Source of the DNA: Actinomycetes bacterium
GTDB taxonomy: Bacteria > Actinomycetota > Thermoleophilia > Gaiellales > Gaiellaceae
DNA length: 41,118 nt
NCBI GenBank assembly: GCA_030598925.1
Contig: JAUVPB010000002.1
Location: 1-41,118 of the forward strand
Reading direction: 5' to 3'
Below are positions 17,582 to 21,486 of the stretch, in pieces. A program made the translations under genes and the position numbers. Numbering within the stretch: the first letter of the stretch is position 1; every line of letters begins with the position of its first letter. The notes under the pieces were generated by a model. That model saw only the letters and a program-made list of their open reading frames with translations, made no database searches and had not been told where the DNA came from.

Positions 17582-18922
17582 CTACTCACGCTCCGTGGCG
17601 GCCGCGCTTGCGCGATTCGCCGGCTCGCCGCGCGTCAGGCCGCTCGCGCGCCTGAGCGTCTCGTAGGCCTCGGCATGTCTGCCCTGCTCGTTGAGGAACT
17701 CCGCGTAGGCATGGAGCGTGTCGGCGAGGTACTTGACCGGCGCCGCCTCGAGCGACTCGATTGCGTGGCTGAAACAGTGACCTGCAAGGTCCTGCTCGCC
17801 GAGGTCGGCGTACACCTGCGCGAGCGTCCGCCAACAGGTGCCGGCATCGTCGGCGTCGACGGCGCCGTTGTCAAGTTCGTCGAGGGCGCTCAGCGCCAAC
17901 TGCTTCGCCTCGTCGGCCCGTCCGGCATGCGCCGCGTAGCGGGCGCGCTCGACAGTGAGGCTCGTGAGATAGCCGGGAGCGGCGCTGTTCCGATACAGCA
18001 GCTCTGCTGTGTCGAGGTGCGGGAGGGCTCCGCTGGCGTCGTTCTGGTCGAGCAGCGCGGAAGCCAGCGCCTCATGCGCCGATGCGAGGTGGAAATGATC
18101 CTCGGTTCCCTCGAGTAGCGCAATCGCTCGCTTGCAGTACGCGACGGTCAGCTCTGGGGAGCCGTCGACGCTGTTGAGGCGTGCAAGCGACCAGTAGAGC
18201 CGGATACGGGCATACGTGTCTCCGAGCCCGTCCGCGCGTTGGATCGCACTCGCGAGTACTTCGTGCGCCGACGCGAGGTTCCCGCAATCGGTGAACGCGT
18301 AGCTCAGGTCGACGGCGAATCGCACGTAGAGCGCGTCATCGACGATGTCCATGCCGGTGATCTCGTCGAGGCAGGACTGGAGGAGCGCCACGGCCTCCGT
18401 TGCCCGTCCCAGAGATGCGAGCGAGCGGCCGGCCGTTGCGTAGAGATCGGGCCGCGCGGCGACCGCCGGACGGGCGGTAGCCGGGATAGCTTCGAAACGC
18501 TGGACCGCCCCGTCGTGATCTCCGAGTGCGGTCGCTGCGAGTATGAGCCCGGCCTCCGCTCGGCCCATCGTCTCCGCGTCGCCCAGCGCGCGTGCCTGCT
18601 CGAGCGTGCGTTCGAAGGCTGGGACAGCAGTGGCGACGCTGCCAAGGCGGAGCTCGAGCTCGGCGTCCAGGATCGCTGTGTCACGAGCGCTCGTCGTCGC
18701 GCCGGTCTCGAGGTACTCAACACTGACACCGAGCTTGTTCGCGAGGGTTCGAAGGGCCTTGTGCGACGGCGCGCGCCTGTCTCGCTCGAGGTACGAGACG
18801 TAGCTCGTCGACACGCCCTCGCCGCTCAGATCGTCCTGCGAGAGACCCCGCTCACGCCTCAGGCGACGCAGCCGCTGTCCGACGGTCTCCTGTTCGCTGG
18901 GCCGAGACACATCCAGCATCAT
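17582..18922 (-). CDS. XRE-family HTH regulator with C-terminal TPR repeats (RRNPP-like architecture)
   Basis: MMLDVSRPSEQETVGQRLRRLRRERGLSQDDLSGEGVSTSYVSYLERDRRAPSHKALRTLANKLGVSVEYLETG, then about 350 aa of A/L-rich TPR-like helical repeats. Confidence 0.88.
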   Translation of the reverse strand: MMLDVSRPSEQETVGQRLRRLRRERGLSQDDLSGEGVSTSYVSYLERDRRAPSHKALRTLANKLGVSVEYLETGATTSARDTAILDAELELRLGSVATAVPAFERTLEQARALGDAETMGRAEAGLILAATALGDHDGAVQRFEAIPATARPAVAARPDLYATAGRSLASLGRATEAVALLQSCLDEITGMDIVDDALYVRFAVDLSYAFTDCGNLASAHEVLASAIQRADGLGDTYARIRLYWSLARLNSVDGSPELTVAYCKRAIALLEGTEDHFHLASAHEALASALLDQNDASGALPHLDTAELLYRNSAAPGYLTSLTVERARYAAHAGRADEAKQLALSALDELDNGAVDADDAGTCWRTLAQVYADLGEQDLAGHCFSHAIESLEAAPVKYLADTLHAYAEFLNEQGRHAEAYETLRRASGLTRGEPANRASAAATERE

Positions 18923-18974
18923 GGCGCGCTCTCTGCCTCGGGTCAAATCTGCGTCGAGTCTGAAGTCGTGTCGT

Positions 18975-18987
18975 CCGGAGCCTCCGG
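18975..18987. promoter_or_regulatory. 13-bp palindrome CCGGAG-C-CTCCGG, candidate operator
   Basis: Perfect 6-1-6 inverted repeat in the divergent intergenic region. Confidence 0.35.
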
Positions 18988-19028
18988 GATCATTTCTCGC
19001 CACCAAAGTCACAAAGGAGGAATGACGT

Positions 19029-19124
19029 ATGTGGAGGATTCTCGCGTCGAAGAGGTACCCGCTGCTTGTTGCGGTAGCCGTCGGGGTGGCGGCGGTTGCG
19101 GGATCGTTCAGGTGGGGCCCGTAG
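19029..19124 (+). CDS. 31-aa small hydrophobic peptide MWRILASKRYPLLVAVAVGVAAVAGSFRWGP, putative pro-pheromone or small membrane protein
   Basis: AAAGGAGG at 19013-19020, 8-nt spacer, ATG, 31 codons, TAG, then terminator-like hairpin; divergent from the XRE-TPR gene. Confidence 0.65.
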   Translation: MWRILASKRYPLLVAVAVGVAAVAGSFRWGP

Positions 19125-19142
19125 GCGCTCTGTCCATGCGCG

Positions 19143-19182
19143 TTGATGGGAGGCCCGCCGGCGAGCGGGCCTCTCGCATCAA
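19143..19182 (+). terminator. strong hairpin TTGATG-G-GAGGCCCGC-CGGCGA-GCGGGCCTC-TCG-CATCAA
   Basis: Perfect 9-bp GC stem with outer 6-bp arms, 19 nt after the small ORF stop. Confidence 0.5.
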
Positions 19183-19232
19183 GGGGGTAGTGGGCGAGGG
19201 CGGGTCGGCGTCCGGGGCCGGGACCGGCCGCG

Positions 19233-20003
19233 TCAGCTTCCGTTGCCCGCGAACAGTCCGAACGCGGCTCCAGCCGGATCTGCAAGTACCGCGATCCGAC
19301 CAACCTCCGGAATATCGTCCGGGCCCATGTACACGGTTGCCCCAAGTTCTTCGGCGCCCGCGACGGTCAGGTCGATGTCATCGACGGCGATGTAGGTCAT
19401 CCAGCGTGGACGTGCGTCAACGCCGGGTGGGACCGCCATGAGTCCGGCGGCGTCTCGACCGTCGGTCTTGAAGAGGTTGTAGGGCGTCTCGCCGATTGGC
19501 CAGGTTTCGGCACTCCAGCCAAGCAAGTGCCCGTAGAACGACTTGGCGGCCTCGACATCGGTCGTCAGCAGCTCGTCCCAGGCGAAGGCTCCTTTCGGCG
19601 CAGGCCGCTCCGGCTGGCCGGGCCCGTCGCCGAACTGCTGGATCACGGCGAACGCCGCCCCTTGCGGGTCGGCAAGGACAGCGAATCGACCGACTTCTGG
19701 GATGTCGGTTGGTGGTAGATGGACGGTTCCACCGATCGCTTCGGCGCGGCCCACGGTGGCGTCGACATCCTCGACAACGACGTACCCGGTCCAGTGCGGC
19801 TGCATCTCCATCTGCGGTTTGACGAAGCCCCCCTGATGCGTGTCGCCGTTCTTGATCATGGGATACTCCATCTCGCCCGGTTTCCAGAGTTCAAGCTGCC
19901 AGCCGAGGAGCTGTGTGTAGAAGGCCGTGGCCACATCCGGGTCGTCCGAGGCGTGGTCGTGCCAGACGAAATGCCCGACCGCCGTCGTCGTTGGAGTGCT
20001 CAT
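19233..20003 (-). CDS. VOC (glyoxalase/bleomycin resistance) family protein, two domains
   Basis: GHFVWHDHASDDPDVATAFYTQLLGWQLELW and a second repeat GAFAWDELLTTDVEAAKSFYGHLLGWSAETW. Confidence 0.9.
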   Translation of the reverse strand: MSTPTTTAVGHFVWHDHASDDPDVATAFYTQLLGWQLELWKPGEMEYPMIKNGDTHQGGFVKPQMEMQPHWTGYVVVEDVDATVGRAEAIGGTVHLPPTDIPEVGRFAVLADPQGAAFAVIQQFGDGPGQPERPAPKGAFAWDELLTTDVEAAKSFYGHLLGWSAETWPIGETPYNLFKTDGRDAAGLMAVPPGVDARPRWMTYIAVDDIDLTVAGAEELGATVYMGPDDIPEVGRIAVLADPAGAAFGLFAGNGS

Positions 20004-20072
20004 CAAACCCTCCTCGTCTCTTCTTGTCGGCAGCCTACGCCTCCTAGCGGCCCCGTGCGGCCAGGGTGCGCG

Positions 20073-20123
20073 AGCGAGCCCGCGACGGGCGTCTTCAATC
20101 CGCCTCACAGGCGCGGGCTCGCT
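20073..20123. repeat. 12-bp perfect inverted repeat AGCGAGCCCGCG / CGCGGGCTCGCT (27-nt spacer)
   Basis: 20073-20084 and 20112-20123, in the gap between VOC (-) and hemA (+). Confidence 0.8.
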
Positions 20124-20211: not shown

Positions 20212-21486
20212 GTGACGGACTACGACGCGGTTTTCGCCTCCGCTATCGCGGAGCTCAGGGCTGAGGGTCGGTATCGGACATTCGTCGAGCTCGATCGCCA
20301 CGACGCGGAGTTCCCACATGCGAGCCGCATGCCGGGCCCCTGGACCGACGAATCTGGAGCGCCCCAAGACACCGTTGTCTGGTGTAGCAACGACTACCTG
20401 GGCATGGGCGAGCATCCCGTCGTGCTCGACGCAATGGAGCGGGCGGTGCGTTCTGCAGGCGCCGGCTCAGGTGGCACGCGCAATATCTCTGGTACGAGCA
20501 CCGACCACGTGGAGTTGGAGCGCGAGCTCGCGAGTCTGCATGCCAAGGACGCGGCGCTGGTCTTCACGTCGGGCTATGTGGCCAACGAGGCCGCTCTCTC
20601 GAGCCTGGCGTCGGGCTTGCCAGGGTGCGTGGTGCTCTCGGACGAGCGAAACCACGCGTCGATCATCGCCGGCATCCAGCAGAGCCAAGCAGAGAAACGC
20701 ATCTTCTCCCACAGCGACATGGCGGATCTCGAGCGGCAGCTAAACGTGATCGTGCCCGAGCGGCCCAAGATCATCGTGTTCGAGGCGATCTATTCGATGG
20801 ACGGCGACGTAGCCCCTGTCGAGGCGATCTGCGATCTGGCGGAGCGTTACGGAGCGCTGACGTACCTCGACGAGGTCCATGCCGTCGGCATGTACGGCGA
20901 GACGGGAGCGGGCATCGCCGAGAGGGAAGGACAAGCCGCGCGGGTCGATGTGATCCAGGGCAGTCTCGCGAAGGGCTTCGGGGTGATGGGCGGCTACATC
21001 GCGGCCTCGTCGCCCCTGATCGACTTTGTGCGCTCGACCGCGCGGGGCTTCATCTTCACGACCTCACTGCCTCCCGCCCTGGCGGCCGCGGCGACGGCAA
21101 GCGTCCGCTACGTACGCCGGTACGGGACGGACGACCGGCAGCTCCTGCAACAACGCGCCGAGCGCCTGACGACCCTTCTTGTCGAAGCAGGGCTTCCGGC
21201 CATGAGCTCCGAGTCACACATCGTTCCGATTCTCGTTGGCGACCCGGTCCTGTGCGAGCGGGTCTCGCGCGCGTTGATGTTCGAGCATGGCGTCTACGTC
21301 CAGCCGATCAACTACCCGACGGTTCCGCGGGGCACCGAGCGGCTTCGCCTCTGCCCGACCCCGAAGCACACCGAGCGTCATGTTGACGAGCTTGTCGCCG
21401 CTCTGAACGATGTCTGGAGCCGGCTCGTCATGGAAGGCCCGCTCGAGACTCCGATTCAGGCCCTAGGCTCGGTCGGTCGAGCCTAA
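20212..21486 (+). CDS. hemA: 5-aminolevulinate synthase (Shemin-type, PLP alpha-oxoamine synthase)
   Basis: [21 protein letters not shown]...[50 protein letters not shown]...[12 protein letters not shown]...[36 protein letters not shown]. Confidence 0.9.

Follow-up and report, generated by a model that had tools for sequence, protein, structure and literature searches.

A candidate peptide signal precursor divergent from an XRE-TPR regulator in Gaiellaceae and related Actinomycetota

The described systems closest to the locus reported here set a gene for a short peptide beside the gene of its regulator. In PlcR-PapR of the Bacillus cereus group an XRE helix-turn-helix and TPR receptor adjoins a short secreted precursor, the C-terminal end of which is the signal. 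In the Rgg-SHP and ComR-ComS systems of streptococci a hydrophobic precursor of 22-32 aa lies beside an XRE-type regulator, often divergently, and ComS/XIP signals carry Trp motifs. NprR-NprX and Rap-Phr employ a nine-TPR superhelix with a peptide ligand. In RopB-LCP the bare peptide is encoded by an ultrasmall, SD-preceded ORF that lies divergently beside the gene of a TPR-type receptor, and in some cases the target gene follows this ORF; such LCPs (leaderless communication peptides) are reported only from Firmicutes (PMC10518010). RRNPP signalling is portrayed as peculiar to Firmicutes, the phylum on which the large surveys were likewise carried out (PMC10075063, PMC9765709, PMC10518010), and the signals ascribed to Actinomycetota are enzyme-made small molecules (PMC10075063). 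The RRNPP signature comprises five criteria: a receptor of 250-500 aa, a TPR HMM match at E < 1e-5, a propeptide of 10-100 aa, genes adjacent at -60 to 400 bp, and secretion by Sec (SignalP) or PptAB (PMC10075063).

The locus considered here lies in a 41,118-nucleotide stretch of DNA (the window) from a 2.87-Mb MAG of Thermoleophilia/Gaiellaceae that is 83% complete. It holds a 31-aa ORF divergent from a gene for an XRE-TPR protein. The ORF is read as encoding a precursor from which a short peptide signal is made, and the XRE-TPR protein as the cytoplasmic receptor of that signal and as transcription factor, with a probability of roughly 0.8; the two are very probably cognate partners, and quite likely the pair works in extracellular population signalling. 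Four of the five RRNPP criteria agree with the pair (446 aa; TPR_12 E 5e-12; 31 aa, with 24-40 aa in most relatives; 106 bp between the divergent ORF and the regulator ATG, a distance of about 70-350 nt in relatives). For the fifth, secretion, a basic N-terminus, a hydrophobic core and A-x-A-like cleavage sites are seen, but the A-x-A test is uninformative and not selective, since the peptides are Ala-rich and all 68/68 pass it. The leaderless forms in relatives, at 6-9 aa, are too short for the propeptide range.

PlcR is the best match to the regulator among solved RRNPP structures; compared with PlcR-PapR, however, the focal regulator is longer (about nine TPRs versus five), the peptide gene is divergent, the peptide end is of the WGP/WP type and the host belongs to Actinomycetota. 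Unlike Rgg, in which no TPRs are recognisable by sequence (PMC9765709), the focal regulator has recognisable TPRs. None of the Rgg family models in Pfam and NCBIfam matched it, nor did any RopB model, and the pair is therefore not filed as Rgg or RopB but placed in an Actinomycetota XRE-TPR family of its own. The first-pass annotation had proposed an RRNPP/Rgg-SHP-like pair; the general RRNPP resemblance, PlcR included, survives, whereas the likeness to Rgg in particular does not. The ropB-SIP-speB layout (PMC10518010) is similar to that of the PWGx mini-ORFs followed by a Wzy_C gene described below, and the leaderless-ORF trait of the LCPs is found in three relative clades, although the focal ORF has a leader. 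The receptor subfamily is unrelated to that of RopB, and here leaderless and leadered forms share an end motif within one receptor family. With respect to NprR-NprX and Rap-Phr, phylum and peptide code differ, and a Rap-type three-helix bundle was not seen.

The open-access literature searched yielded no RRNPP-type system from Actinomycetota; earlier reports may exist beyond it. The evidence leans slightly towards Actinomycetota owning a large unrecognised pheromone family, in which XRE-TPR receptors are combined with WGP/WP-ended peptides that switch between leadered, multi-repeat, tandem and six-codon leaderless forms with clade-private codes; its origin may be separate from that of the Firmicutes RRNPP systems. 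With such a family, cytoplasmic-receptor peptide signalling would reach into an abundant, hardly cultured soil class and into further Actinomycetota families; dozens of receptor-peptide codes would become available, one clade having a possible link to surface polysaccharide through a Wzy_C ligase gene. Because one signal comes in leadered, repeated, tandem and leaderless versions, the family would amount to a natural experiment on the starting point of the active peptide and the origin of leaderless signals, and the six-codon ORFs would rank among the smallest conserved bacterial genes.

The Gaiellaceae peptide gene and the divergent regulator gene

The elements of the locus are collected in Table 1. 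The positions that the first-pass annotation gave for the Shine-Dalgarno sequence and its spacer, the start and stop codons, the hairpin and the regulator gene were each confirmed, and its description of the opposite-strand product as an XRE-HTH and TPR protein is borne out by Pfam (HTH_3, E 1.6e-10; TPR_12; TPR_14, 5e-9). The hairpin is indeed strong: the folding energy of 19125-19200 (76 nt) is -43.7 kcal/mol, with a z of -3.3, but a clear U-tract is lacking. The peptide itself matched no family in Pfam or NCBIfam. The next gene past it, a convergent glyoxalase gene (19233-20108), is followed by an aminotransferase class I/II gene (20212-21486, +) that reads as 5-aminolevulinate synthase-like; in the sister genome G001 the counterpart of the latter is the next co-directional gene after the peptide, whereas in the focal genome the glyoxalase gene lies between.

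Table 1. Coordinates of the features of the locus, in positions of the window
Feature	Position	Strand	Basis or remark
Shine-Dalgarno AAAGGAGG	19013-19020	+	8-nt spacer; conserved in sister-genome orthologue
31-aa peptide precursor MWRILASKRYPLLVAVAVGVAAVAGSFRWGP	19029..19124	+	ATG 19029, TAG 19122-19124; sister orthologue MWRLVASKRFTLLLTVAGTVAALAGSIRWGP
Predicted active C-terminus GSFRWGP	19101..19121	+	A-x-A-like site before it (AVA|GSFRWGP); precise mature ends predicted
Hairpin 3' of peptide ORF, likely terminator	19143..19182	+	fold energy
Divergent intergenic region, putative promoter/operator	18923..19012	.	block ACCAAAGTCACAAAGGAGGA (19002-19021) identical in sister genome
446-aa regulator with XRE-HTH and TPRs, putative intracellular receptor of a peptide	17582..18922	-	Pfam; AlphaFold2; sister orthologue 72% identical
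Regulator helix-turn-helix domain, residues 14-74	18701..18883	-	Pfam HTH_3/HTH_31/HTH_19
Regulator TPR superhelix, residues 79-430	17633..18688	-	AlphaFold2 helices

The whole region aligns with that of the sister genome, which is of the same genus, including the SD block ACCAAAGTCACAAAGGAGGA and the ORF MWRLVASKRFTLLLTVAGTVAALAGSIRWGP. The two peptide genes differ by 19 synonymous and 12 non-synonymous changes (pS 0.74, pN 0.19), and the ORF is thus constrained at the protein level; absence of codon constraint across relatives had been named in advance as counting against the peptide, and instead purifying selection is clear. Other close pairs give synonymous versus non-synonymous counts of 12 vs 1 (L096/L108) and 4 vs 1 (L118/L131). 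Within close pairs the C-termini are mostly unchanged while the hydrophobic core drifts. In homology searches with the peptide alone the sister-genome match was the one convincing match; the others, except one in G015, were due to chance and lay inside longer frames, so that an approach through the neighbourhood of the regulator was needed.

The longest mechanical ORF for the regulator spans 17582-19345 with a TTG start, but the start is likely the ATG at 18922 because homology to relatives begins at that point; the homologues are about 430-450 aa long. The AlphaFold2 model, based on a 32-row alignment, has a mean pLDDT of 88 and consists of the HTH followed by the TPR superhelix. Profile search matched PlcR in the PDB (2qfc/3u3w, E 2e-10) over residues 2-198, i.e. 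the HTH and first TPRs, with generic TPR proteins outscoring it. Foldseek against the PDB returned TPR proteins generally, and its top 25 included PlcR-PapR7-DNA (3u3w, E 1.4e-6) and phi3T Rap (8rsv, E 2.1e-6). Since the unrelated eukaryotic TPR superhelices of LGN and OGT score above PlcR, the fold match to PlcR is nonspecific. Conserved polar and aromatic residues number 19 on the A helices versus 4 on the B helices; A helices form the usual concave face of TPR superhelices. The cluster R201, S207, Y208, R241, Y243, W244, S245 and R248 of the model is a candidate ligand site.

Pairing across the regulator family and its distribution

Regulator homologues were gathered in relatives, across the class and in named genomes, and dereplication on the first 60 residues left 101; these rows are related, and 101 is not a count of independent events. 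A locus was scored as paired when an ORF 5-45 codons long stood in the 450 nt upstream, preceded by at least 5 nt of SD match at a spacer of 3-11 and with a Trp within the last five residues. A divergent ORF of this type stands upstream of 65/101 homologues, as compared with 5/101 on the same strand as the regulator, 0/19 for paralogous XRE-TPR genes of the same genomes, 0-1/102 within the regulator gene, 3-5/85 farther upstream, and a mean of 2.55/101 (maximum 4) in dinucleotide shuffles. At an SD of at least 6 there are 47 divergent ORFs versus 1 on the same strand, 0 at paralogues, 0-1 in-gene, 1 farther upstream and a shuffle mean of 0.35. The Trp criterion was set after the first examples had been seen, and the controls were scored by the same criterion. 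The pairing is conserved: a short ORF with strong SD, variable core and conserved C-terminus beside XRE-TPR orthologues had been set beforehand as support for the pair, and this is what was found; orthologous loci without a short ORF, which had been expected to count against it, are outnumbered by those that carry one.

For 24/100 scored family regulators no peptide was detected upstream, and a search of the downstream side of these 24 found none either. One regulator (L079) has upstream a leadered peptide, MRKAALMRALVVLASLVAVLASADLIDPH, with a strong SD and no Trp; its end motif may have diverged past the Trp criterion, which makes the 65/101 count conservative. A pattern of fixed PWGP codons plus a TGA stop had no match in 103 family genomes, a pattern too strict for this to be evidence of absence. 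A second XRE-TPR subfamily (L215-L234), often with one match per genome within the same family, is consistently without a peptide and served as a control.

The named relatives in which the regulator occurs are MAGs of Thermoleophilia, Gaiellaceae and other Actinomycetota. In the class sample it is present in 98/399 genomes, mostly of the focal genome's own family, at E 1e-20, a threshold that also lets in control paralogues; in the phylum sample it is present in 22/397 at E 1e-45. Among loci outside the class and outside Streptomyces, 9/15 have a divergent SD-preceded peptide with Trp near the end, and none has one on the same strand; two of this set (L240 and L242) are near duplicates and another (L255) has a weak start. 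The ends of these peptides include GAANWPHH, MANWPHVP, SAGWPKH, AAKWPWG, TAGFPWPK, ASFPWGGT and RYPWR. Viral contigs gave HTH-only matches, and plasmids gave no match to the focal regulator protein.

Beside the regulator of six Streptomyces-like loci no Trp-ended peptide ORF stands out. The secreted peptides of ~57 aa in such loci were rejected as candidates, an M64 metallopeptidase gene being divergent there in two annotated Streptomycetaceae plasmid records. In these (L269:1493-4332 and L272:1418-4293) the regulator homologues are divergent from an M64 metallopeptidase with a signal-peptide-like N-terminus. Because of the M64 gene and the lack of a Trp-ended ORF, Streptomyces is not counted as having the pair.

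Peptide forms, the regulator tree and the proposed signal

The 67 distinct precursors are mostly of 24-32 aa with a hydrophobic core and, in most, an N-terminal charge of +2. Most peptides end in a short variable stretch around PWGP, WGP or WP, e.g. GSFRWGP, NGSLPWGP, GTEPWGPW, GGDPWGPH, GAMDWGP, GGGLFWGP, GFYRGW and ADLVTYWP; the residue after the last Trp is G or P in 47/53, and P comes next in 36/41. Precursor genes occur in two or three tandem copies in L095 (three), L111, L117, L048, L088 and L190. Of these copies the last alone is followed by a strong hairpin, an arrangement that looks like one transcript with one terminator. Repetition also occurs within one ORF: that of L110, METRSGVWPWGSETRSGVWPWGS, contains ETRSGVWPWGS twice, and a 59-aa ORF upstream of the L057 regulator consists of SAGWGPYPS-type units ((SAGWGPYPS)n), both repeating the C-terminal motif with little hydrophobic sequence. 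A second L057 ORF of 31 aa has similar units, and the two ORFs resemble multi-copy pheromone precursors. Phr-type genes carry repeated pheromone units per precursor through intragenic duplications, according to work cited in PMC10075063.

Loci that lack the hydrophobic ORF have at the same place ORFs of 6-12 codons with near-perfect SDs. These are of three types: PWGx ORFs (MAPWGS, MLPWGS, MAPWGC, MYPWGC, MHPWGS, MWPWGE); a second type comprising MREKWPIW, MREKLPIW, MRSKLPWW, MRSKTQWW, MRDKWPWW, MHGKLLWKLPWW and M(L/V)RSRLGWF; and a third comprising MYAGRLWP, MYGGRIWP and MPGGKAWP. In the PWGx group the third codon positions of Pro and Gly vary (CCG/CCC/CCA, GGT/GGC) and the residues are kept. 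That three separate clades of the regulator tree keep such ORFs in place of the precursor points to the C-terminus as the functional part. Forms switch between leadered and leaderless 4 times on this tree, whereas each of 60 shuffles gave at least 14 switches, and judged from the tree the leader was probably lost independently at least three times. Peptide ends are congruent with regulator phylogeny: distances between regulators and between peptide ends correlate (Mantel r 0.25, p 0.001), also among regulator pairs of <65% identity (r 0.20, p 0.001). Such a correlation is a prediction of a receptor-ligand pair, and shared descent of linked genes contributes to the correlation too.

In the cycle proposed for this pair, the precursor would be inserted or exported by means of its basic-hydrophobic N-terminus, and proteolysis would release a C-terminal peptide of about 6-9 residues with a WGP-type motif, as the leaderless and repeat versions suggest. 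An oligopeptide importer would bring the peptide back in, where it would bind the concave face of the TPR superhelix, consistent with the conservation there. The bound peptide would change DNA binding by the HTH domain at the shared intergenic region, with feedback on the peptide gene as the layout implies, so as to sense the population. The genome encodes two oligopeptide-binding proteins (SBP_bac_5, PF00496) and one site-2-type M50 protease (PF02163), which make uptake and processing possible; both kinds of protein are near-universal in control genomes.

In a rival reading the peptide is the regulator's ligand but never leaves the cell that makes it, serving there as a feedback or timer device without export or uptake. 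The leaderless ORFs, which have no export signal, are in keeping with this, as is the distribution of promoter sequences. Members of a clade share conserved blocks in their intergenic regions; one example is CTTGACAACAAATG, with its -35-like TTGACA, and another is GTCAATCGGCGCTTCCTCRTGRCAACAT, present in eight PWGx-group loci. In 7/8 genus-g6 genomes GTCAATCGGCGCTTCCTCRTGRCAACAT occurs once, at the peptide gene, and in G341 twice on one contig. For genus g6 such a distribution points to a circuit that acts locally, not to a large regulon, and an autoregulatory loop would fit it. Most versions, however, retain a basic-hydrophobic leader, for which a ligand confined to the cell would have no use, and the SIP of RopB acts between cells despite having no leader (PMC10518010); a wholly internal role is accordingly unlikely. 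As a separate observation, the two GTCAATCGGCGCTTCCTCRTGRCAACAT copies of G341 (C91, 474-501 and 2602-2629; L274, L282; compare L100) are oppositely oriented, next to two complete or fragmentary regulator genes, and give the impression of a pair that was duplicated.

The first-pass annotation had left the choice between a pro-pheromone and a small membrane effector under control of the regulator. The latter takes its appeal from the focal ORF, which resembles a single transmembrane segment with a positive-inside N-terminus, and from the frequency of small membrane proteins in bacteria. It is argued against by the leaderless 6-12-codon versions that carry the same C-terminal motif: in three regulator clades there is no membrane segment, and only mini-ORFs of the MxPWGx or MREKWPIW type remain. 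It also sits poorly with the repeats of L110 and L057 and with a core that drifts while the last residues stay. An effector is thus quite improbable, and the pro-pheromone half of the earlier proposal is the one supported.

Genes behind the peptide

Genes downstream of the peptide vary between relatives and are often convergent. Behind the PWGx mini-ORFs come a terminator-like hairpin and, next on that strand, a Wzy_C (O-antigen ligase) gene (L105, L099, L101, L107, L109, L115, L112, L121). This recurrence suggests control of surface polysaccharide in those clades, and the layout is such that the regulator might control the O-antigen ligase-like gene as well as the peptide gene.

A hairpin after the ORF, with the Wzy_C gene behind it in PWGS-type loci, would also fit a role of the ORF as a leader or arrest peptide, with attenuation or ribosome stalling as the means of controlling a gene downstream; arrest peptides have Trp/Pro-rich ends similar to these. 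But the focal ORF has no cis target in the gene that follows it, which is convergent, and among relatives the downstream genes differ in the manner just described. Neither the placement of the hairpin after only the last tandem copy nor the tie to a single regulator family (0/19 paralogues) is explained by such a mechanism, which is very improbable. That the ORF is a chance or assembly or annotation artefact, as might be feared of short ORFs easily found in GC-rich DNA from genomes that are mostly MAGs, is a negligible prospect in view of the pairing controls, the purifying selection, the congruence with the regulator tree and the recurrence in many independent assemblies.

A gene of the Wzy_C type, multi-TM, also follows the peptide gene on the same strand in L048/L263 (L263:4010-5491, -), and in L264 (10178-11617, +) one lies behind a methyltransferase gene.
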